From a virus, in IMG/VR virus record IMGVR_UViG_3300021963_000437, positions 1 to 31,924 of that record: a stretch of 31,924 nucleotides of DNA; one strand, 5' to 3'. The notes under the pieces are model-generated. The model worked only from the letters and a program-made list of their open reading frames with translations, was not told where the DNA came from and made no database searches. The first letter of the stretch is position 1; the number at the start of each line of letters is the position of its first letter. The position numbers and the translations under genes are program-made. Shown here piece by piece: positions 458 through 29,439 of this stretch.

Positions 458-1132
458 TTATAAATTTAGTGTATTTTTAATTAATTTTAAACACAATTGT
501 TTTGTTTCTTCTGGACAATTTGCAAATTCTGGATGACCTTGAATGCATAAAGAATTACTATTATTATAGTATACAATCTCGCATTCTAAGAAGTTAGTTG
601 GTAATTCTTTTTCCTCATCATTACCATTTAGATATGTATCACTTAAATAATATTTAGATGCTGCATGAATTGTATATGCTTGTGGATCTAAATTGTAAGG
701 ATACATCATTTGATGATGTGTTGAGGTCATTTCATATACATTACCATTTCTAAGTAGTTCAATAAGATGTGAATTACCATGATTTGCAACATGTTGAATC
801 AATGAACCACCTGAAGCTACTGTTAAGAATTGTGCACCTCTACAAATTCCTAATTTAGGAATTTTACTACTCAATCTGTGAAACATATAATCAAATTCAA
901 ATTCATCACGTTTACGATTAGTAAATGTACGTGAACCTATTTTCTCACCATAATGTGCAGGTGATACATCTTCACCTCCTGCAAATAATATTAAATCAAT
1001 TTGATCATCGATATTCATATTTTTAGCACAAATTGGATTAACATCATATGCTAAATTTAAAAAATCTATATAATTACGAGGTGTATCATTTGAATTAATT
1101 AATACGTTTAGTTTCTTTTTAGTTTCTTTCAT
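458..1132 (-). CDS. Class I glutamine amidotransferase / gamma-glutamyl hydrolase, PuuD-like (copy 1)
   Basis: This is a 224-aa protein of the peptidase C26 / class I amidotransferase fold. The glycine-rich FAGGEDVSPAHYGE segment (residues 50-63) precedes the nucleophile elbow GICRGAQ, with Cys97. His200 and Glu202 in QGHPEF complete the triad, so it should be active. PuuD-type enzymes cut gamma-glutamyl-amine bonds, and its short single-domain form fits a free-standing hydrolase better than an amidotransferase subunit. The next gene upstream encodes a diverged relative with the same triad. The spacing is 1 nt, so the two are probably co-translated. In this cassette it could trim or release gamma-glutamyl products of the two ligases. 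The precise substrate is not visible. Confidence 0.8.
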   Translation of the reverse strand: MKETKKKLNVLINSNDTPRNYIDFLNLAYDVNPICAKNMNIDDQIDLILFAGGEDVSPAHYGEKIGSRTFTNRKRDEFEFDYMFHRLSSKIPKLGICRGAQFLTVASGGSLIQHVANHGNSHLIELLRNGNVYEMTSTHHQMMYPYNLDPQAYTIHAASKYYLSDTYLNGNDEEKELPTNFLECEIVYYNNSNSLCIQGHPEFANCPEETKQLCLKLIKNTLNL

Positions 1133-1133
1133 G

Positions 1134-1853
1134 TTATTTTAATAAATCATTAATAATATTTTTTGCAACATCGCAATTAAATTCTTCAGGATGATATTGA
1201 AATCCCCATATTGGTAATGCAGTATGTCTAAATATTTCAACAACTGTATGTGCTACACTAGTAGATTTAACAATACCATTTTTATCAAATTCTCTCCATG
1301 TACTAAGGTTATTAGTATCTGAATAACATCCTTCATACACTTGTGAATAAGCAATAACTTCTAAATCATCACCTAGTTTCTTAACTGATTGATGATGCAT
1401 TGAATTTACAAAATGAAATCCATCATTATCAATAAATTGGATCTCTTGATCTGTAGAACTTCTACTACCTCCTTGTTGATGACCAACAATATGTTGATTC
1501 AATGTACCACCAAACCAAGTATTCAATCGTTGCATACCTCTGCAGATACCTACAATTGGTTTACCTGCACGAATAAACTTTGGTAATAACATATCATCTA
1601 GATATTCATAATGTTGATTACCTCTACCTGTCATAACTCCTGGTGCTTCACCATATGTTTGTACATACACATCTGCACCGCCTGGTAATACAAGCATATC
1701 AACTTCATTTTCAATGTTATCTAAATTATCTAATGTTGAAATTAATCTAACATGACCAAACTGACTCAAGAATTGCATATATGGAAATGTCTGACCTACT
1801 TTATTGTCAGAACAATCTGCATACACACCTATAATTTTATTTTGTTTTTTCAT
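1134..1853 (-). CDS. Class I glutamine amidotransferase / gamma-glutamyl hydrolase, PuuD-like (copy 2)
   Basis: This 239-aa protein has LVLPGGADVYVQTYGE near residues 54-69, the nucleophile elbow GICRGMQ with Cys104, a FVNSMHHQS segment near 148-156, and QYHPEEF with His221 and Glu223. The complete triad points to a working class I hydrolase of the gamma-glutamyl-gamma-aminobutyrate hydrolase (PuuD) type. It clearly differs from the neighbouring copy outside the motifs, so this is an old duplication or two separate gains rather than a recent tandem copy. Its start overlaps the end of the ATP-grasp gene by 17 nt, which suggests translational coupling of ligase and hydrolase. Confidence 0.8.
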   Translation of the reverse strand: MKKQNKIIGVYADCSDNKVGQTFPYMQFLSQFGHVRLISTLDNLDNIENEVDMLVLPGGADVYVQTYGEAPGVMTGRGNQHYEYLDDMLLPKFIRAGKPIVGICRGMQRLNTWFGGTLNQHIVGHQQGGSRSSTDQEIQFIDNDGFHFVNSMHHQSVKKLGDDLEVIAYSQVYEGCYSDTNNLSTWREFDKNGIVKSTSVAHTVVEIFRHTALPIWGFQYHPEEFNCDVAKNIINDLLK

Positions 1854-2742
1854 TGTATTTTTTTGTTAATAATTTTGGCAATTCTATTTTATATTTTTCT
1901 AGTGTCATTTCACCAAAAGATGGTGCTGAATTGATTTCTACAACAATAAAGTTTGGATCATTTCTAAATTCTCCATCTTTATCTGTGTTATTCTGAACTC
2001 TTAAATCACATGCACCGAAGTCAAGTTTACAACTTTTCAATGCTCTCACACAATTATCAACAATAGTTTGCCAATTGTTAGGTTTATCAAATAGTTCATT
2101 TTCTTCTAAAATCCATATGCAGTTATCATCATGTCTTTGCCATGAATTTGGATGATCTTTAAACTCTTGTTTAAGCATCTTTCTGCATGAATAAAAGCAA
2201 CCATTTTCTGTAACATGTAATCTATATTCCTTGTTATAGTTATAATACTTCTCAAAGATATAGTTGGTTAGCTTTTTATTAATTAACCAAGATTGTAACT
2301 CAATCTGTGATTTAATCAATGTATTACCTGTACCTCTGCTACCATAGATATGCTTTGCAACTAATGGATATTCCATGTCTGATGGTTTGATATCAAAATC
2401 TTCACTTTCAGTAGTATTACTTCTATCTTGAAAGTGATTTCCATCAAAACAATACCATACTGCTGTTTGAACACCTTCTTGGCTAAAACATTCCTTCATT
2501 TGAAACTTATTAGAGCTGTTTCTAATAGCTTCTCGTGAATTCAATTCTATTCTAGTACCCTTTAATGTAGCAGGATCTGTAAGCTCTGTTAGAGAGCCTA
2601 ATCTAATCACTGATCTAAATGGTAATTTAACCAATTGATATCTTAATTGAGAATGACTAGGATGTCTACTTCTAATCATAGGTCTAAAATTACCTTTTAG
2701 TTTTTTCTCAAGGACTGCTTTTTTAAATTTTAATGTTATCAT
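1837..2742 (-). CDS. ATP-grasp ligase
   Basis: This 301-aa protein reads as an ATP-grasp carboxylate-amine ligase. The nucleotide-binding loop is PLVAKHIYGSRGTGNTL around residues 146-162, the EYRLHV strand follows near 192, and the C-terminal metal-binding segment has DFGACDLRV and then VVEINSAPSFG (acidic Glu plus Asn near 270-280). Such enzymes activate a carboxylate as an acyl-phosphate and form an amide with an amine, for example adding glutamate to a peptide end. A basic N-terminus with a RSRHPSHSQLR stretch precedes the core. It lies between a GGCT-like gene and a PuuD-like hydrolase, which supports peptide or gamma-glutamyl chemistry. The substrate cannot be read from the sequence. 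Confidence 0.8.
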   Translation of the reverse strand: MITLKFKKAVLEKKLKGNFRPMIRSRHPSHSQLRYQLVKLPFRSVIRLGSLTELTDPATLKGTRIELNSREAIRNSSNKFQMKECFSQEGVQTAVWYCFDGNHFQDRSNTTESEDFDIKPSDMEYPLVAKHIYGSRGTGNTLIKSQIELQSWLINKKLTNYIFEKYYNYNKEYRLHVTENGCFYSCRKMLKQEFKDHPNSWQRHDDNCIWILEENELFDKPNNWQTIVDNCVRALKSCKLDFGACDLRVQNNTDKDGEFRNDPNFIVVEINSAPSFGEMTLEKYKIELPKLLTKKYNEKTK

Positions 2743-2743
2743 A

Positions 2744-3199
2744 TTATTCCATTCCGTATCTAGCTGTTAATAATTGATCGTCATTAAATGACATTTTGTG
2801 TTTTTTCCAATCACCTGATTCAATTTTATGAGCTGTGTTTGTTCCACAATTGAAAATATATGTATAACATTCTCCATATGGACTATCAATTACAACTCTA
2901 TTATAATAGTTATCAGTACAGTCTTCCTCATAGCCTTCCAATCTGTCAAGGCTATGTAATACTTCTTTTTCTACAGCATATACTTCCATTTTTACAGAAG
3001 TAGATCCGTTTTCTTTCAATGCTGGATAAGAACCTAATGAAAATAAATCATATACAGGTTCTGTATCAAATTCTCCTACAAATTTAGAATTTCTTAAAAA
3101 ATGATGATTGTGTAAATCTTGTCGTAAAGATCCATACACAGCAACCAACTCGTGATCTTCAATCTTTTTTGTTTTTGGATTAAAATAAGATGTTTTCAT
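2744..3199 (-). CDS. Gamma-glutamylcyclotransferase-like (GGCT/AIG2) protein
   Basis: This 151-aa protein has the family's signature loop, VAVYGSLR at residues 19-26, and the likely catalytic acid Glu88 in LDRLEGYEED. The length is usual for the single-domain GGCT/AIG2 fold. These enzymes release 5-oxoproline from gamma-glutamyl amines or peptides. It is the first gene of the cassette in reading direction, 1 nt after the primase stop and 1 nt before the ATP-grasp ATG, so the whole group appears to be one transcript with the replication genes. Together with two PuuD-like hydrolases it gives the phage three potential gamma-glutamyl-cleaving activities beside two ligases. Confidence 0.8.
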   Translation of the reverse strand: MKTSYFNPKTKKIEDHELVAVYGSLRQDLHNHHFLRNSKFVGEFDTEPVYDLFSLGSYPALKENGSTSVKMEVYAVEKEVLHSLDRLEGYEEDCTDNYYNRVVIDSPYGECYTYIFNCGTNTAHKIESGDWKKHKMSFNDDQLLTARYGME

Positions 3200-20598: not shown

Positions 20599-20854
20599 TG
20601 GATTAGCTCCATTTCCAGTGTATGATACTGAATATGTAAGCGATGTAGATACTAAAATTAAACAAATAATGAAAGATAAAGAACACGATTATGATCAAGA
20701 ACCCGTGGTGGCTTGTAAGTATTGCAAAAGTTTACATATTGTATCAGATGAAGTTGATAACAACATCTGCATGAAGTGTGGATCGATTAATGAGTTGCAA
20801 ACTTTTGATAATATAAACAAATACCTCGAGTTTAAAAATGACAAAGATTCTTAA
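20570..20854 (+). CDS. Zinc-ribbon protein
   Basis: I take the ATG at 20570 (94 aa) as the more economical start; an upstream ATG at 20537 would add eleven residues and widen the overlap. A classical ribbon is seen: CKYCKSLHIV, then CMKCGSINELQ about 18 residues later. The N-terminal part is helical and acidic. It overlaps the PhoH gene by 17 nt. A nucleic-acid or transcription role is possible. Confidence 0.6.
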   Translation: MLSNHLHYYNGLAPFPVYDTEYVSDVDTKIKQIMKDKEHDYDQEPVVACKYCKSLHIVSDEVDNNICMKCGSINELQTFDNINKYLEFKNDKDS

Positions 20855-21497
20855 TACAGAAAAAAGACAGTTAAAGACTGAACCAAAATTGCTAGTTGAT
20901 CTAGACGAACAACAAAAAGAGTTTGTAGAATTGTTTTATCAATACGATGTAAACTTTTTATTAGGGGATTTTGGATCAGGTAAATCATTAGCTGCAGTGC
21001 ATACAGCATTAAAATCATTTAGAAAAAAACAATTTGATAATATCTGGATCACACGACCAATGTTAAAGAATAGTTTAGCCGCATTACCAGGTACACTGGA
21101 AGAGAAGATGGCACCATATACATTTCCTATCATACAGAATTTAGAAGTATGTCAAGGAAAAGAACAAACAGATAAGATGTTGAAAGATGGGTTGATTAAA
21201 GTCATGCCAATTGAGGTTGCAAAAGGAGTTTCATTTATGAAGTCAGTTGTTATTGTTGATGAGTTCCAAGATATGGATTATGTAGATTTTAGAACAATCT
21301 TAACCAGGCTTGGAAAAAACAGTAAGATGATTTTTTGTGGATCAAAACAACAGATAGACAAGGCTATTGGAAAGAATAGTTGTTATTACAAAGTTGAGAA
21401 GTTAGAGAAAAGTAATTTAGTAGGATTTAAGACTCTAACAGCTAATCATAGAAATCCTATACTAACAGATATAATTAATTATTTGGAAAATGAGTAA
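20838..21497 (+). CDS. PhoH-like ATPase
   Basis: This 219-aa protein carries the PhoH P-loop ATPase core. Walker A is GDFGSGKSLAAVHTAL near residues 43-58, followed by a basic ITRPMLKNSLAALPGTLEEK (a helicase-like PhoH segment) near 72-91, Walker B VVIVDEFQDM near 137-146, and GSKQQIDKAIGKN near 169-181. PhoH proteins are widespread in phages and linked to RNA or nucleotide metabolism and phosphate stress, though the exact role is unclear. The length is near the family's usual 200-250 aa. It overlaps the next gene by 8 nt (coupled). Confidence 0.88.
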   Translation: MTKILNTEKRQLKTEPKLLVDLDEQQKEFVELFYQYDVNFLLGDFGSGKSLAAVHTALKSFRKKQFDNIWITRPMLKNSLAALPGTLEEKMAPYTFPIIQNLEVCQGKEQTDKMLKDGLIKVMPIEVAKGVSFMKSVVIVDEFQDMDYVDFRTILTRLGKNSKMIFCGSKQQIDKAIGKNSCYYKVEKLEKSNLVGFKTLTANHRNPILTDIINYLENE

Positions 21498-21885
21498 CAT
21501 AAAAACGGCTAATCTCAATGTTACATTAAAAGATTTATTTTTTAGATGGTTAGATATAACTAAAGCCTTTCACAAATTAAATAATCAACAACAGAAAGTA
21601 TTAGCTTTATTTTTATATTATCATTATCTTTACAGAAAGGATATAACAAATAATAAAATACTTTGGAAGATTGTATTTGATTATGACACCAAGATGAAGA
21701 TTAAAGAAGATCCGATCTTTGACGAGGGGTTAAGTGACAATGCTTTAAACAATGTATTAACTATATTAAGAAAGAAAAAGATTATTGTTGATGGGCAGAT
21801 AGCACCCCTTTTTATACCAGAGCTTGATGTAAAAAGTAAACAATTTAGAGTAATATTTAATTTTAATATTGTAGATAATGAGTAG
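21490..21885 (+). CDS. Hypothetical protein, possible winged helix
   Basis: This 131-aa protein starts MSNIKTANLNVTLKDLFFRW and has hydrophobic helices KVLALFLYYHYLYRKDI (about 37-53) and then SDNALNNVLTILRKKKIIVD near 86-105, which reads like a recognition helix plus wing. It may be a regulator. It is coupled to PhoH upstream and to the 92-aa gene downstream by 8-nt overlaps. Confidence 0.5.
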   Translation: MSNIKTANLNVTLKDLFFRWLDITKAFHKLNNQQQKVLALFLYYHYLYRKDITNNKILWKIVFDYDTKMKIKEDPIFDEGLSDNALNNVLTILRKKKIIVDGQIAPLFIPELDVKSKQFRVIFNFNIVDNE

Positions 21886-22156
21886 ACTTGATGAGGATAA
21901 AGTTAAATTACTAATTCATAAAATTGGATTAGATTATAAACTACAAGATGAGGTAATCAAAAAGATTGTTAATTCGCCATACAAGTTTACACGAGAAACA
22001 ATAGCTAATTTAGATGTTAACCCTGAGATAACAGAAGAAGAATTTAATAAATTAAAAACAAACTTTATATATTTATATATTGGGAAGCTATATACCAGTT
22101 ATGACATATATAAAAAATTAAAAAACCTTAATAACAAAAGATGGAAGAAAGAGTAA
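21878..22156 (+). CDS. Hypothetical protein
   Basis: This 92-aa, charged, helical protein starts MSRLDEDKVKLLIHKIGLDY and ends KKLKNLNNKRWKKE. No family is recognised. It overlaps the GroES-like gene by 16 nt, so the two are likely coupled. Confidence 0.55.
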   Translation: MSRLDEDKVKLLIHKIGLDYKLQDEVIKKIVNSPYKFTRETIANLDVNPEITEEEFNKLKTNFIYLYIGKLYTSYDIYKKLKNLNNKRWKKE

Positions 22157-22509
22157 ATTTAACACAAGATGATGTGTTAGACAAAATTGGGAGTTTTGCA
22201 GTTAAGCCTTTATTTAACAAAGCTATTGTAACTTTAAATAGTTTAGAACCAGATGGTAACTTAGTATTATCAGATAACACACTGTCAGATGTACAATATG
22301 TAATGGCAGTTGGTGATACAACATTTAAACAAGTTGTACCTGGACAAAAAGTTATTATTGACATTGAAAAGATGATGGTCCCTGTTAAGCAGGAAACTAC
22401 AAATCAGTATGAGTCAGTAATGCAAATTAAAGTTGACCCAATTGAAGTAGATGGAATTGTGTATGCAATTATAGATGATAGAATGATTAAAGCAATTGAT
22501 AATAGATAA
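22141..22509 (+). CDS. groS: GroES-like co-chaperonin
   Basis: This 122-aa protein has a GroES-type core after a roughly 20-residue N-terminal extension. AVKPLFNKAIVTLNSLEPDG (20-39) matches the IRPLHDRVIVK strand. GNLVLSDNTLSDVQ (39-52) takes the place of the mobile loop, YVMAVGD (53-59) matches the EVLAVGxG turn, VVPGQKVIID (64-73) matches the KVGDxVIF turn, and the end VYAIIDDRMIKAI matches the ILAIV strand. The mobile-loop segment is short and diverged. It is therefore a gp31-type lid for the GroEL-like ring encoded 760 nt downstream. Similarity is by pattern only. Confidence 0.75.
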   Translation: MEERVNLTQDDVLDKIGSFAVKPLFNKAIVTLNSLEPDGNLVLSDNTLSDVQYVMAVGDTTFKQVVPGQKVIIDIEKMMVPVKQETTNQYESVMQIKVDPIEVDGIVYAIIDDRMIKAIDNR

Positions 22510-22513
22510 AAAG

Positions 22514-22702
22514 ATGAATTTAGAACAAGCAATTAAAATTATGGAGCAAGCTTTGAACGCTGCTTCTAAAGCAGGAGTATTTAATTTACAAGACTCTGCA
22601 ACAGTGTATCAAGCATTAGCTACAATTAGTAATACATTAAATGTAGGAGGTGAAACTTCTTCACCAGAAGTACCGCAAACAAAGGTATCTAAAGCAAAAT
22701 AA
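22514..22702 (+). CDS. Small hypothetical protein between the chaperonin genes
   Basis: I chose the ATG at 22514 (62 aa, MNLEQAIKIMEQALNAASKA); an in-frame ATG at 22496 would overlap the GroES gene. A helical first half with regular Ala and Leu is followed by a disordered, Ser/Pro/Thr-rich end. The stop overlaps the next ATG by one base (TAATG). Function unknown. Confidence 0.55.
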   Translation: MNLEQAIKIMEQALNAASKAGVFNLQDSATVYQALATISNTLNVGGETSSPEVPQTKVSKAK

Positions 22703-23268
22703 TGAAATTATTTGAAATGAGAGATTTTAACCTCCAAGTTACAGAAGAAACTTGGGGGTTATTGCCTTTTAAGGCTATCTTAAAAAGAGACAAATCTAGA
22801 ACAAAAGATACTGCTTTTAAAGAAATGCTTTTTATATATTATTACTCTGACATTAGGTCTGATTATATTTATATAGTTAATAACAAAGATAGAGAAAGGG
22901 AAATAAAAAAAGACATTGGACTACCTACGGATTGGACGATGGATAAAGTAATACAAGATGCAATTGCATATTATGAACATATGTCAATTAGTCCGATTGC
23001 TAAATTATATAAAAGCTCACTAAAAGCAGCAGATGATATTTCTAGATATTTGGAGATGACAGATGTATTATTATCTGAAAGAACTGCTAATGGTAGCACA
23101 GTTACTACATTAGCTACAATCACAGGTTCACTTAAATCAGTGCCTATTATTATGCGTGATTTAAAAGCTGCTTACAAAGAAGTAGTTAAAGAACAGATTG
23201 AATTAGAAGGAAGAGCTAAAGGAAGTAGAACATTAAACCCATTTGAAGATGGGTTATCATTTGAATAA
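22702..23268 (+). CDS. Hypothetical protein upstream of GroEL, probably virion- or assembly-related
   Basis: This 188-aa protein starts MKLFEMRDFNLQVTEETWGL and includes FKAILKRDKSRTKDTAFKEM, IYYYSDIRSDYIYIVNNKDR and a helical C-terminal half (SISPIAKLYKSSLKAADDIS, then LKAAYKEVVKEQIELEGRAK). I recall similar proteins next to head genes in Bacteroidota phages but have no firm function. Position between the two chaperonin genes and before terminase suggests head assembly. Confidence 0.55.
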   Translation: MKLFEMRDFNLQVTEETWGLLPFKAILKRDKSRTKDTAFKEMLFIYYYSDIRSDYIYIVNNKDREREIKKDIGLPTDWTMDKVIQDAIAYYEHMSISPIAKLYKSSLKAADDISRYLEMTDVLLSERTANGSTVTTLATITGSLKSVPIIMRDLKAAYKEVVKEQIELEGRAKGSRTLNPFEDGLSFE

Positions 23269-23269
23269 T

Positions 23270-24739
23270 ATGAAAGAAATATACTTTAGAGAAGAAGCAA
23301 GAGAGAAGTTATTTAGTGGAATAAATAAGTTACATGATGCAGTAGCATCTACTATGGGACCAAGTGGTAAGACAGTAATTATTAGTGATATATACGGTCA
23401 ACCACAAGTAACTAAAGATGGCGTATCTGTAGCTAAAAGCATTCAATTAAAAGATCCTGTAGAGAATATGGGAGCTACATTAATCAAACAAGTTGCTGAA
23501 AAGACAGCATTTGAAGCTGGTGACGGAACTACTACAGCAACTGTATTAGCAACTGCATTTATTAACAACTTAAAGAAGTTTAAATCTGTAGAAATTAATA
23601 AAGCATTTGATGAAATTATACCTGAGATACTTAAACAATTAAAAACAAACTCAAGAGAACTCAAACGTGAGGATATTAAATATGTTGCTAATATATCTGC
23701 TAATAATGATATACAAATTGGGAATACTATTCAGCAGGCTTTCAATCATTCTGATATAGTAAAGGTTGAAGAATCAAATTCTAATAATGATATACTAGAA
23801 TTAGTTGATGGTATGCAACTCAATGTATCATACTTTTCTAAAGCTTTTGTTACAGATGACCGCAAGGCTGAATGTGAATTACTTGAACCATATGTATTAT
23901 TAGTTGAAAATAAGTTAGATTCATTGAAGTCTTTTGAAACTGTACTTAATAGTATTGCTGCTAATGGTCAGTCATTGTTAATTATTACAGATCATGTATC
24001 AGAGCAAATATTAAAGCTACTTGAAACAAATGCTTTGTCAAAAAATCTTAATTTATGTGCAATTAAAACTCCTGGGTTTGGTCAGCATAGAAAAGATCTC
24101 ATTAGGGACCTCTCAGACTTTACAGGAGCTGCTATTATAAGTGATCTTAGTAAGACACATGGATTCAATCAGTTTGGTAGATTAAAGTCTTGTAAGATCT
24201 CTAAAACTAATTCAATATTAGTAAAGCACGATGAGATAGATATTAAAGAATTAGTAGATGCATTAGGTGACTTATCTAAATCAAAAGACTTATCAACAAC
24301 TGATAAAGATTTAATATTACAAAGGTATCAAAACCTATCAGGTAAGGTATCCATCATTAAAGTTGGCGGAGGTTCTGAAGTAGAGATGAAAGAACGTAAA
24401 GATAGATATGATGATGCTGTATTAGCTGCTGCATGTGCATTAGAAGAAGGTATTGTTAAAGGTGGAGGTATTGCATTGTATGATGCTGTACAAAAGGTTC
24501 CAAACAAGCATTTATTAACTACTGAGAGTGCAGACTTTGCAGTTGTTAAAAGTTTACTTGCTCCATATGAAACAATCTGTGATAATGGAACATGTATACC
24601 TGTTTTAAATGATGTGTTTGATCAAAATATCATTGATCCTCTTAAAGTAACTAGATGTGCTTTAGAGAATGCGGTATCTGTTGCTAAGACAATACTATCA
24701 ACCAATACGGTTGTGTTAAATGAAAGACAATGGAATTAA
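23270..24739 (+). CDS. groL: GroEL-like chaperonin
   Basis: I place the start at the ATG at 23270 (489 aa), 1 nt after the upstream stop. The sequence follows GroEL closely at the active sites: HDAVASTMGPSGKTVIISD (22-40), TKDGVSVAKSIQLKDPVENM (48-67) with the ATP-site Asp50, and GDGTTTATVLA (84-94) with Asp85. The late segment KVGGGSEVEMKERKDRYDDA (about 366-385) holds the equivalent of E. coli Asp398. The apical region (about 165-350) is more diverged and shorter, the protein is about 50 residues shorter than bacterial GroEL, and the Gly-Gly-Met tail is absent. It should form the folding ring for virion proteins together with the GroES-like lid. It overlaps terminase by 10 nt. Confidence 0.92.
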   Translation: MKEIYFREEAREKLFSGINKLHDAVASTMGPSGKTVIISDIYGQPQVTKDGVSVAKSIQLKDPVENMGATLIKQVAEKTAFEAGDGTTTATVLATAFINNLKKFKSVEINKAFDEIIPEILKQLKTNSRELKREDIKYVANISANNDIQIGNTIQQAFNHSDIVKVEESNSNNDILELVDGMQLNVSYFSKAFVTDDRKAECELLEPYVLLVENKLDSLKSFETVLNSIAANGQSLLIITDHVSEQILKLLETNALSKNLNLCAIKTPGFGQHRKDLIRDLSDFTGAAIISDLSKTHGFNQFGRLKSCKISKTNSILVKHDEIDIKELVDALGDLSKSKDLSTTDKDLILQRYQNLSGKVSIIKVGGGSEVEMKERKDRYDDAVLAAACALEEGIVKGGGIALYDAVQKVPNKHLLTTESADFAVVKSLLAPYETICDNGTCIPVLNDVFDQNIIDPLKVTRCALENAVSVAKTILSTNTVVLNERQWN

Positions 24740-26952
24740 ATAGATTTCAAACAGAACTAACTGACGAACTAAAAGAAACAGTTCCAAGAGAAGTCTGGGA
24801 TAATCTAATTGAATATATAGCTGGTGTAAAATTTATACAACGGCTGATAGCACCAGAACGTGTGCGGGGATTTGCGAAGGATCGACCAAAGGAAACAGAG
24901 TTCTACAATGATGGTAGAATTCAGGTCGATCTGACAAATCCTCATATTCTAGAATCATTAGATTATTTTAGACAACCTGCATTATTTTTTGAGAAAAATG
25001 GTAAATATACTAATATAATCCCAAACAGTAATCCAAAGTCAGAGTATGCTGAGTTTTGGAAAGAAGAACTAAGGAAATGGAAACATGGCTTAGTTAGAGA
25101 ATCAGATGGGGAGTGGATTCCTGGAACATTATATTTCTATTGGAATTATAACCCTATCTGGTTAGTTGAGGCTGTAGGTAAAGTTTCTTCTAATAAGAAA
25201 ACAAAAGGAGAAAGGGTACGTAAGTTTCCTAAACCTTGGCTAGGTGATTATTTATATTTTCATTACACACAACAAGCAAAAGATAATGGTAAACATGGTA
25301 AAATACTTAAAACTCGTGGTATTGGATTTAGTTTCAAGAACGCCTCCGAATCACCTAGAAATATGTATGTATACCCTGGTTCAGGTAATCCAAATTTTCA
25401 TTTAGCATCTGATAAAACCTTTTTATCTGGTGATAAAGGAATCTGGGGTAAGATTCTGGATTGTTTAGATTGGGTTGCAGAACATACACCATTCTCTAAG
25501 ATGAGAACTGTAGATGGTAAGAAAGCCATGGAGTTACAGTTAGGTTATAATGATGAGTATGGTAATCGTAAGGGATTATTATCATCAGTGTTTGGTATAT
25601 CATTAAAACATGATCCAGATAAAGCTAGGGGTATTAGGGGACCACTTATTCACTATGAAGAAGATGGTTTGTTTCCAGACTTAGAGAAAGCTTGGAACGT
25701 TAATAGAAAAGCCGTGGAAGATGGGGATGTAGCTTTTGGATTCATGCTAGCTGGAGGTACAGGTGGTACACAAGGTGCTTCATTTGCTGGATCTGAGAAG
25801 TTATTTTATAAACCAGATGCTTATAACATATATGGCTTACCTAATGTGTTTGATAAAAACAGTAATGGTGAATCATTATGTGGATTCTTTTGGGGAGCAT
25901 ATCTAAATCGTAATAATTGTTATGATCCAGATAATGGTGAACCAGATGTAATCAAAGCAATGCTAGAGATCTTAACAGATAGGTTTACTGTAAAGTATGG
26001 GTCATCTGATGCTTCTGCTATTACACAGAAGAAAGCAGAGGAACCTATTACACCTCAAGAAGCTATTATGCGTACAGAAGGAACAGTGTTTCCTGTAGCA
26101 GATATAAAAGAATACCTTGAAAGTGTGGGACCTAGAAAAGAAAGTTTCTTAGCCGAGCATTACATTGGTGATTTAATTGTTAATAACACTGGTGGGGTAG
26201 AATGGAAACCTAATGCTGATAAATATCCTTTAAGAGCATTTGATTCATCTGAAACAGATAGAACAGGATGCTTAGAGATATTTGAGATGCCTCGTAAGAA
26301 TGCTAATGGTGAAGTACCACGTGGTAGATATATTGCTGGTATTGACCCCATTGACTCTGATGCAGGTAACTCTTTGTTTAGTATATTAGTAATGGATACT
26401 TTTACAGATAAGATAGTAGCTGAGTATACTGGTAGACCTAAGCTTGTAAATGATGCATATGAGATTGCACTTAGAACATTAAAGTTTTATAATGCAGAAG
26501 CTAATTACGAGAGTAACTTAAAAGGTTTATTTAGTTACTTTGATGCTAGAAATTGCTTGCATTATCTATGTGATATACCTCAAATCCTTAGAGATATGGA
26601 TATTGTAAAAGCTACTGGGTTATATGGTAACAAAGCTAAAGGTACACACGCTAATGCTAATGTAAATAGCTGGGGTAGACTACTTCAAGCAGAATGGATG
26701 AAGACAAGAATTAGTCCTGAAGATGAAGAAGATGAAAGATTACACTTACACCGAGTGAGAAGTATACCATATTTAGAAGAATGTATAGCATGGAATAGTG
26801 ATGGTAACTTTGATAGGGTGTCTGCTGCTGGTATGTTGTTTATTTTAAGAGAAGATAGATATAAAAGAACTAACTCAATTAGAGAGAATCAACATAAGCA
26901 ACAAAAGAAACTGTCTAACGATGCTTTCTTTAATAGAAATTTTAATAAATAG
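24730..26952 (+). CDS. terL: Terminase large subunit
   Basis: This 740-aa protein is the packaging motor. In the ATPase part LKTRGIGFSFKNASE near residues 195-210 takes the place of a Walker A loop, LIHYEEDGLFPD near 306-317 is the Walker-B-like strand with catalytic acids, and FMLAGGTGG near 338-346 the coupling motif. The RNase H-type nuclease opens with RYIAGIDPIDSDAGN near 532-546 and continues with NYESNLKGLFSYFDARN near 593-609. Length and motif style match crAss-like terminases. Its ATG lies within the end of the GroEL gene. The TAG stop lies inside the 19-nt repeated element, and a promoter follows. Confidence 0.9.
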   Translation: MELNRFQTELTDELKETVPREVWDNLIEYIAGVKFIQRLIAPERVRGFAKDRPKETEFYNDGRIQVDLTNPHILESLDYFRQPALFFEKNGKYTNIIPNSNPKSEYAEFWKEELRKWKHGLVRESDGEWIPGTLYFYWNYNPIWLVEAVGKVSSNKKTKGERVRKFPKPWLGDYLYFHYTQQAKDNGKHGKILKTRGIGFSFKNASESPRNMYVYPGSGNPNFHLASDKTFLSGDKGIWGKILDCLDWVAEHTPFSKMRTVDGKKAMELQLGYNDEYGNRKGLLSSVFGISLKHDPDKARGIRGPLIHYEEDGLFPDLEKAWNVNRKAVEDGDVAFGFMLAGGTGGTQGASFAGSEKLFYKPDAYNIYGLPNVFDKNSNGESLCGFFWGAYLNRNNCYDPDNGEPDVIKAMLEILTDRFTVKYGSSDASAITQKKAEEPITPQEAIMRTEGTVFPVADIKEYLESVGPRKESFLAEHYIGDLIVNNTGGVEWKPNADKYPLRAFDSSETDRTGCLEIFEMPRKNANGEVPRGRYIAGIDPIDSDAGNSLFSILVMDTFTDKIVAEYTGRPKLVNDAYEIALRTLKFYNAEANYESNLKGLFSYFDARNCLHYLCDIPQILRDMDIVKATGLYGNKAKGTHANANVNSWGRLLQAEWMKTRISPEDEEDERLHLHRVRSIPYLEECIAWNSDGNFDRVSAAGMLFILREDRYKRTNSIRENQHKQQKKLSNDAFFNRNFNK

Positions 26953-27048: not shown

Positions 27049-29439
27049 ATGACTCCACGTATAAACAGTCTTATTTTACCAAGACAAAGGTTAGCTTACT
27101 CAAAGAAAGATCAAGAATGGCGTAAAAATAATCTTGATTATGCTGATAGACATTCGTTTTATAACAATGAAAGAGTTAGAAAAAGTCTTCAAAATAAAAT
27201 TATTAATCTAAACATGTACAATGGTATCATTGATGTTAGAGATTTAACTAATGTAGTTAATCCACATCAAATTGATGCTAGCTTTGTACCAGATAATATA
27301 CCTCATCACCCAATTATAGTTCCTAAGATTGATCTATTAGTAGGTGAAGAAGTTAAAAGAAGATTTGATTGGTCTGTTATTGTTACTAATCCAGATGCAA
27401 TTAGTAAAAAAGAAGAGGATAAAAAAGCTTTCTTACAACAAAAGTTAACTGAGTTCTTTCAAGCAAGATATTCTGATGAAGAATTGAAAGCAAAGATGGA
27501 GGAACTTAATAAACATATGAAGTATTCTTGGCAAGACATTCGTGAAAAAACTGCCAATCAGATACTTAAACATTATAGTCAAGAACAAAGGTTTGATAGA
27601 ATATTTAATGATGGATTTAAAGATGCATTGATATTTGCAGAAGAGATTTATCAATGTGATATTATTCATGATGAACCTGTGTTACTTAAACTTAATCCAT
27701 TAAAAGTACACTCCGTGCGTGCTGGTAACTCAGATAGAATCGAAGATTCATCTATTATTATCATACAAGATCACTGGAGCCCTCATAAAATCATTGATGT
27801 ATATCATGATGAATTGAAAAATGAAGATATTGATTATATCATGGAATATACTCAAACTTCTTCTAAAGGTTCATATGCTGATGATCAAAATAATCACGTA
27901 TTGCTACGTGATGCTTTGAATACAGGAGTTGAGGGAATGTATGATACCATCTTTAATTTAGCTGAGTTAAATGGTCACTTCTTTGGTTCTAACTATACAG
28001 ATGATACAGGAAACATTCGTGTATTAAAAGTATTTTGGAAATCACTTAAACAAATTAAGAAAGTTAAGTATTATGATGAGTATGGTGAAGAGCAATATAA
28101 AATTGCATCTGAAGAATACATTGCAGATAAAAACTTAGGGGAAGAAGTAACTTCTATGTGGGTTAATGAATGGTGGGAAGGTGTTAAAGTAGGTAAAGAT
28201 ATTTATCTTAATATTAAACCACGAAAAGTCCAATATAATAAAGTTCATAACCCATCTATATGTAGTCCTGGTATTATTGGTCAAATTTATAATACAAATC
28301 AATCTAAAGCAGTATCATTGATTGATAGAATGAAAAACTATCAATATATGTATGATGTTATTTGGGATAGACTTAATAAAGCTATATCTACTAATTATGG
28401 TAAAATCTTTGAATTAGATTTAGCTAAAATTCCTGAAAACTGGGAAGTAGATAAATGGATGCACTTTGCTGTAGTTAATAAGATTGCAGTTATTGATTCA
28501 TTCAAAGAAGGTAACCAAGGTGCTGCTACTGGTAAATTAGCTGGTAGTATGAATACACAAGGTGGTCGTGTAATGGATATGGAAACTGGTTCTTATATTC
28601 AACAACATGTTCAGTTACTGGAGTTTATTAAAGCTGAGATGGGTGAGATTGCTGGTGTAACTCAACAACGTCAAGGTCAAATAGAAAACAGAGAAACTGT
28701 TGGTGGTGTTGAAAGATCTGTTAATCAATCTTCACATATTACTGAGTATTGGTTTATGCTTCATGAGCAAGCTAAGATTAGAGTAATGGAATGTTTCTTA
28801 GAAACAGCTAAGATTGCTTTAAAAGGTAAAAACAAAAAAGTACAATATCTTTTAGATGATCAATCTATTCAAGCATTGAATATTGAGTCAGAAGAGTTTG
28901 CTGATAATGACTATGGTGTTGTTATTACTACATCTTCAAGAACAATGGAACTTGAACAGATGATTAAACAAAATGCACAAGCATTCTTACAAAACGGTGG
29001 ATCATTATCTACAATTATGGATATTTACTTTAGTCCATCATTAATGGATATGAGAAGACGTTTAGAAGAAGCAGAAGAACAAATGCATCAACGTCAATCA
29101 GAACAATCTGATCAAGCTAATAAGATTCAAGAGGCTAACAATAAAGCTACTATTGATTTAGAAAATAGAAAACTTGATTTAGAAGATATAAAAAACCAAC
29201 GTGATAATCAAACTAAATACGATATTGCATTATTAGAATCAGAAGATAAAATTACTGATTTAAATGGCGATGGTATTGAAGATCCTTTGGAAAGAGAAAA
29301 ATTTAATTTAGACATTGAAGAAAAAAGAAAATCATATATACTCAAAATGAAAGAACTTCAGAATGATATGAAGAAACATAAAGACAATGTTGAGTTAGAA
29401 AAAGAATCTCATAAGATAGCTAGAATGAAAAAGAAATAA
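27049..29439 (+). CDS. Portal protein
   Basis: This 796-aa protein follows terminase and precedes scaffold and capsid genes, the portal's place. The first part has PRQRLAYSKKDQEWRKNN and then LLVGEEVKRRFDWSVIVTN (about 100-118), a segment usual for portals of this group. The centre has GEIAGVTQQRQGQIENRET (about 543-561), a typical portal stretch before the clip. The last 150 residues are a long charged helix, probably the barrel, with an inserted DLNGDGIED loop (737-745) of calcium-binding type. The ATG at 27049 is the only one that leaves a frame open (an ATG 5 nt earlier meets TGA at once). No Shine-Dalgarno motif is seen; the leader is A-rich. Confidence 0.85.
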   Translation: MTPRINSLILPRQRLAYSKKDQEWRKNNLDYADRHSFYNNERVRKSLQNKIINLNMYNGIIDVRDLTNVVNPHQIDASFVPDNIPHHPIIVPKIDLLVGEEVKRRFDWSVIVTNPDAISKKEEDKKAFLQQKLTEFFQARYSDEELKAKMEELNKHMKYSWQDIREKTANQILKHYSQEQRFDRIFNDGFKDALIFAEEIYQCDIIHDEPVLLKLNPLKVHSVRAGNSDRIEDSSIIIIQDHWSPHKIIDVYHDELKNEDIDYIMEYTQTSSKGSYADDQNNHVLLRDALNTGVEGMYDTIFNLAELNGHFFGSNYTDDTGNIRVLKVFWKSLKQIKKVKYYDEYGEEQYKIASEEYIADKNLGEEVTSMWVNEWWEGVKVGKDIYLNIKPRKVQYNKVHNPSICSPGIIGQIYNTNQSKAVSLIDRMKNYQYMYDVIWDRLNKAISTNYGKIFELDLAKIPENWEVDKWMHFAVVNKIAVIDSFKEGNQGAATGKLAGSMNTQGGRVMDMETGSYIQQHVQLLEFIKAEMGEIAGVTQQRQGQIENRETVGGVERSVNQSSHITEYWFMLHEQAKIRVMECFLETAKIALKGKNKKVQYLLDDQSIQALNIESEEFADNDYGVVITTSSRTMELEQMIKQNAQAFLQNGGSLSTIMDIYFSPSLMDMRRRLEEAEEQMHQRQSEQSDQANKIQEANNKATIDLENRKLDLEDIKNQRDNQTKYDIALLESEDKITDLNGDGIEDPLEREKFNLDIEEKRKSYILKMKELQNDMKKHKDNVELEKESHKIARMKKK

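Follow-up and report, generated by a model that had tools for sequence, protein, structure and literature searches.

The virus record is 31,924 bases long, and the window analysed here covers all of it. Two divergent halves meet at about 18 kb, the minus strand carrying the replication genes and the plus strand those for packaging. The packaging half carries the terminase large subunit (TerL) of Crassvirales type (24730..26952, +; phrog_6681, 1.9e-107), which starts at ATG 24730, and the portal protein (27049..29439, +; phrog_6547, 1.6e-160). In the PHROG search both are crAss-like families, and the TerL is 36-41% identical over its full length to those of the Steigviridae crAss001, cr126_1 and cr116_1. 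Judged from these genes, the record is a fragment of a Steigviridae-like member of the Crassvirales. No major capsid protein was identified within the 31.9-kb record. Four adjoining genes on the minus strand (458-3199) include, by resemblance, two glutamine amidotransferases (phrog_7218, twice), an ATP-grasp S6 glutaminyl transferase-like gene and a gamma-glutamyl cyclotransferase-like gene. Together they may make up a cassette for peptide or amide modification, here carried by a crAss-like phage.

Upstream of the terminase lies a block of plus-strand genes in the order PhoH, two small genes, GroES, (small gene), 188-aa gene, GroEL, TerL and portal. It begins with a PhoH-like ATPase (20838-21497; Pfam PhoH, 3.2e-41) and two small genes conserved in synteny (21490-21885 and 21878-22156). 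The GroES-like co-chaperonin (122 aa, 22141..22509) follows, recognised by its AlphaFold2 fold and by profile comparison. Two genes conserved in synteny separate this lid from the ring, so that the two are not adjacent in the record: a small gene of 62 aa from its ATG (22514..22702), which is found in only part of the clade described below, and the 188-aa gene (22702..23268; phrog_16390, 2.3e-6). The GroEL-like group I chaperonin (489 aa, 23270..24739) was identified by Pfam, PHROG, AlphaFold2 and fold match. The synteny map showed the block to be conserved in at least 26 other IMG/VR contigs, with GroEL adjoining TerL. An earlier sequence-only reading had placed lid and ring in the head module and had the GroEL gene overlap the terminase start by 10 nt. 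Both statements agree with our map, in which the block ends with GroEL, TerL and portal, and GroEL ends at 24739 while TerL begins at 24730 (overlap 24730..24739, +). The identical overlap was found in 14 of 15 aligned loci and, by the synteny map, in 22 of the 26 other contigs; a 198-nt gap takes its place in L014. Translational coupling of GroEL and TerL is probable from this arrangement.

The GroEL open reading frame (23243-24739) matched Pfam Cpn60_TCP1 at 5e-47 (161.1 bits versus a cut-off of 34.3) and PHROG 5725 (groEL) at 1.5e-117. Its AlphaFold2 model (pLDDT 89.5) has the three-domain chaperonin fold, and 484 of the 489 residues were aligned with E. coli GroEL-ADP (Z 39.8, rmsd 3.5). 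This family and fold match is far beyond chance. The score against the GroEL equivalog model NCBIfam TIGR02348 was 390.1 bits, under the curated cut-off of 582.1. The ATG at 23270 is likelier to be the start than the TTG at 23243, because it aligns with the N-termini of other GroELs; no Shine-Dalgarno sequence was visible at the GroEL start. All of the ATP/Mg residues are kept (T30, G32, P33, K51, D52, G53, D87, G88-T91, D398, G414 and D495, E. coli numbering), and D52, D87, D398 and D495 are present in all 28 sampled members of the clade. The earlier claim of a chaperonin with key ATP-site residues holds. The protein ends in NERQWN without a Gly-Gly-Met tail, and its apical domain is the most diverged part (27.8% identity to E. 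coli GroEL, versus 38.6% for the equatorial and 40% for the intermediate domain, gaps excluded), both as had been read from the letters. Structurally, the ring differs most through losses in the equatorial domain, which the sequence-only reading had not mentioned.

The lid gene had no match of its own in Pfam, PHROGs or PDB by sequence search, and it was recognised only through its fold and through profile-profile comparison. The Cpn10 model of Pfam gave the crAss001 lid relative 17.7 bits, under the cut-off of 21.1. The AlphaFold2 model of the lid is a beta-barrel (pLDDT 82.8), and its first matches in a Foldseek search of PDB were GroES/Cpn10 (E 1.3e-4). Structure prediction of the single proteins, which had been proposed as a check, thus returned both folds. 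Comparison with GroES/Cpn10 structures reached Z 9.2 (84 residues, rmsd 2.9), and T4 gp31 gave Z 7.1 with 8% identity over the structural alignment. The best non-chaperonin structure, an alcohol dehydrogenase-type enzyme, gave Z 5.9, and a GroES domain of the dehydrogenase type was rejected on this difference. HHalign aligned the whole domain of 22 crAss-like lids with known GroES (E 6e-7), and the lid profile also matched phi14:2 g096 (1.6e-35) and the '10kDa chaperonin' of cr116_1 (1.6e-30). The small gene therefore encodes a GroES barrel, as the sequence-only reading had supposed.

The mobile loop of the lid lies at about aa 36-46 and contains a hydrophobic LVL, with aa 39-41 modelled at low confidence. 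Its G-x-Phi-x-L motif is kept, and is of the GxLVLS type in most of 16 sequences. The GroES roof hairpin is missing between VG(44) and GD(62), and a hairpin of about 20 aa at about aa 76-95 is extra relative to GroES. T4 gp31 is also without roof loops, which is thought to help accommodate the 56-kDa capsid protein gp23 (PMC6318259). Between close pairs, dN/dS was 0.16-0.27 for GroES and 0.14-0.42 for GroEL, indicating purifying selection. Together with the family scores, this rules out a chance open reading frame.

Two deletions affect the contacts between rings, as found from anchor distances and alignment. At the first junction (24593..24598, +), about 23-25 aa are missing, comprising the inter-ring helix with E461, S463, V464 and N467 and the stem-loop 472-485. 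In the alignment the four helix residues are deleted in all 28 clade members sampled, and the stem-loop, which bears N479-A481 near the nucleotide, is absent along with them. The distance from GGG(414-416) to DPxK (D495) is 58 aa in the record and 44-70 in the clade, versus 77-82 in bacterial GroELs and 74-88 in most other phage GroELs; phi14:2, cr111_1 and L060 are intermediate (58-71). At the second junction (23567..23572, +), 5 aa of the loop between helix D and helix E are missing, which is the K105-A109 contact region of E. coli. The GDGT-to-ISAN distance is 58 aa in the record's subclade versus 62-66 in bacteria. The loop is 5 residues shorter in this subclade (22 of 28 sequences), and the subclade of L014, L016, L017 and L019 retains it. 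The strands that make contacts within a ring (aa 36-39, 45-48 and 480-483) are present in the AlphaFold2 model. The sequence-only reading had named a loss of ring contacts as refuting it. This applies by half: contacts between rings are deleted and the strands for those within the ring are kept, a combination that points to a single-ring machine and not to a non-chaperonin.

Chaperonins of known ring number were used for calibration. SR1 is a single-ring GroEL obtained by R452E/E461A/S463A/V464A (PMC5653362); apart from R452, the positions changed in it are among those deleted in the clade. The phage chaperonin OBP, which is single-ring by experiment (PMC9598537), shows the deletion in the helix D-helix E loop and is also shortened at the other contact site. 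EL, a double ring that splits with ATP (PMC7185714, PMC5934643), has the loop deletion only, and keeps and lengthens the other contact region. Single-ring AR9 has neither deletion. Since AR9 lacks the deletions although it is single-ring, and EL has that of the loop although it is double-ring, deletion length alone cannot give the ring number, and segment length was rejected as a sure marker of it. The deletions in the clade favour a single ring, short of proof.

The hydrophobic groove of the apical domain (Y199, Y203, F204, L234, L237, L259, V263 and V264) is not intact as a set. Y199, F204, L237 and L259 are mostly kept in the clade, and Y203 is replaced throughout. L234 has become K/E/R/A/Q, V263 E/K/R and V264 S/T/D/E/N. 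These three positions are polar or charged across nearly all of the clade, whereas they are hydrophobic in the bacteria sampled. R197 is lost in 28 of 28 sequences and E386 stays. In E. coli, work on GroEL mutants places the binding of both substrate and GroES at L234, V263 and V264. Because these residues are replaced, binding of host GroES to the phage ring is unlikely, and the cognate lid would be the natural partner. The suggestion that the ring is specialised relative to host GroEL is supported. The same changes may also mean that classical GroES and substrate binding has been lost, which would count against the explanation we prefer, as does the loss of the stem-loop near the nucleotide.

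We consider it probable that the locus encodes a specialised chaperonin-lid pair, presumably acting as a single ring, for late phage proteins. That the pair is a working chaperonin with its cognate lid is very likely. The phage would thus make its own chaperonin system, in which the GroEL-like protein would most likely assemble into a heptameric ring, binding and hydrolysing ATP, the GroES-like protein would cap this ring, and the closed chamber would fold late proteins of the packaging/head module. The loss of both classical sites of contact between rings suggests one ring as the functional unit, the state of mitochondrial Hsp60 and phage OBP, and we lean slightly towards it. The lid would then have to come off with no signal from an opposite ring. 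A weak, co-evolved contact between lid and ring would be expected in such a machine, and the rebuilt apical groove fits this expectation. The T4 precedent and the gene position make the capsid protein the obvious choice of candidate client; we give nearly an even chance to the main client being the capsid protein or another protein of the head. Against this client, relatives that have only the lid assemble their capsids with no ring of their own. In its fullest form, the preferred reading would be a natural one-ring machine with a deleted interface and a co-evolving roofless lid, performing encapsulation and lid release within one ring and tuned to virion proteins. We put this form forward tentatively, at a little below even chances.

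One alternative is a double ring with its own lid, stacked through a different and possibly in-register interface, as reported for EL. That EL forms double rings in spite of its helix D-helix E loop deletion is in its favour, but the clade is also without the whole of the other contact region, which EL retains, and we regard a stacked double ring as rather unlikely.

Whether lid and ring belong together was judged from their distribution. Exactly one lid and one ring were found in 13 of 13 clade records searched whole, a count that leaves out L060 and L062, which lie outside the clade. Of these two, L062 carries a diverged lid but lacks a ring, and L060, a partial contig, holds a ring but gave no lid match. 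Both genes are present in phi14:2 and cr111_1. Four complete genomes of gut relatives (crAss001, cr116_1, frurule and bajarodcaudo) hold the lid but no Cpn60 gene anywhere. From this comparison of lid-only and two-gene phages, the lid stays constant across Steigviridae-like phages and the presence of the ring varies. Since complete gut relatives carry the lid without GroEL, the lid need not pair with a phage ring, which counts against obligate pairing.

The lid could accordingly be a gp31-type replacement of host GroES that works on host GroEL, with the phage GroEL separate and lidless like EL, OBP and AR9. These three work without a co-chaperonin, and searches of their genomes gave no Cpn10 match; the absent roof loop, shared with gp31, and the lid-only gut phages also fit. 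Against this, both genes always occur together in the clade and their divergence is correlated (Mantel r 0.83 for GroES-GroEL distances; 0.51 for GroES-TerL). Such a division of labour is improbable to about the same degree as the double ring.

A third alternative is a diverged chaperonin whose folding activity has been lost, serving as a holdase, as a decoy mixing into host GroEL or as a host-takeover factor. Replacement of L234, V263, V264 and R197 in 28 of 28 sequences would agree with it. However, the catalytic residues of the ATP site are invariant, the gene stays beside the terminase under purifying selection and the lid is retained, which makes this alternative quite improbable.

The sequence-only reading had asked whether the source was a host or an older phage lineage. 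In a tree of 69 sequences, a single branch (SH-aLRT 99, stem of 0.68 changes per column) separates the TerL-linked GroELs from the rest, and all sampled bacterial GroELs group together (support 93). phi14:2 appeared as sister of the clade with weak support (82). Several branches are long, which weakens the placement of phi14:2 and cr111_1 beside the clade and limits deeper inference. Among about 85,000 species genomes, scanned by short exact patterns, the best bacterial GroEL match had 38% identity. These results support an old phage lineage, a deep and phage-only clade. Recent capture of a host groESL operon, with which the group I type and the nearest PDB entry (an ancestral Fibrobacteres-Chlorobi-Bacteroidetes chaperonin) would agree, is all but ruled out by the tree and by the identities in the genomes scanned, and neither a gene order unlike groESL nor a lid below Pfam detection fits it.

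Phage GroEL genes had been called uncommon, and the pair of lid and ring rarer, which our survey did not bear out. GroEL relatives were found in 287 records of a 50,697-record phage collection, and annotated GroEL and GroES pairs occur in several Bacteroidota phages, among them Flavobacterium immuto and elemo phages and Cellulophaga Calle, and also in a Manatee Spring phage and in crAss-like cr111_1. Our literature search for GroEL/GroES in crAss-like phages gave PMC11348598 and PMC5332604 only. The latter, in the passages covered, reported GroEL in 36 marine crAss-like environmental genomes in 2017. Phage GroEL/GroES is thus a kind already known, and GroEL has been known in marine crAss-like genomes since that year.

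Compared with known systems, the record's pair shares the three-domain fold, the ATP site and the GroES barrel with E. coli GroEL/GroES and SR1. Its ring is about 35% identical to E. coli GroEL and has lost the inter-ring helix, the stem-loop, groove residues and the GGM tail, and its lid is without the roof hairpin of E. coli GroES. phi14:2 (GroEL g105 and GroES-like g096) and cr111_1 (GroEL and 'putative 10kDa chaperonin') have the same order, with lid and ring upstream of TerL in the packaging module. The phi14:2 GroEL is 36.7% identical to that of the record and lies about ten genes upstream, and the cr111_1 GroEL is very diverged. Unlike the record, both have only a partial deletion and no GroEL/terL overlap. 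The gut Steigviridae phage crAss001 has a homologous lid, Gp15 ('putative 10kDa chaperonin'), at the same place upstream of terL, but no GroEL anywhere in its genome. T4 gp31 is a phage lid with the GroES fold and no roof loop, like the record's lid; T4 has no ring of its own, and gp31 works with host GroEL. EL, OBP and AR9 are phage-encoded like the record's ring, single-ring forms are known among them and OBP has the same loop deletion, but they come from jumbo phages, lack a co-chaperonin and are far from the record in sequence. The GroEL of marine Bacteroidetes EVG group 2 was related to Cellulophaga phage homologues (Nishimura 2017, PMC5332604); a text search of that paper gave no mention of GroES, and the passages covered hold nothing on a ring deletion, the groove or a lid.

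As far as the literature searched goes, it is new that a whole clade has lost the interface between rings and kept a lid that lacks the roof. Studies of lid release without a trans ring have so far relied mostly on engineered GroEL-SR variants and mitochondrial Hsp60 (PMC5575113). The present phages, which combine a deleted interface with a probable cognate lid, offer many natural variants for testing it. Comparison with the lid-only gut crAss-like phages can be used to test whether the ring is a later gain on top of an older gp31-like, lid-only strategy or has been lost from it.

Several minor observations concern the neighbouring genes. The 188-aa gene is retained even without GroEL in cr116_1 and L062. 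The crAss001 gene directly 5' of the lid (L102, 4730-5014) is annotated 'protein HU'; the 92-aa gene of the record (21878-22156) occupies the same place, and a profile match was found there in cr116_1. GroEL, TerL and portal are each broken into two frames in L036 (5833-12080), probably by sequencing or assembly frameshifts. L058, L060 and L066 belong to a more distant TerL group (60-63% identity) and carry a different, longer GroEL upstream of the 188-aa gene, which suggests a separate gain or replacement.
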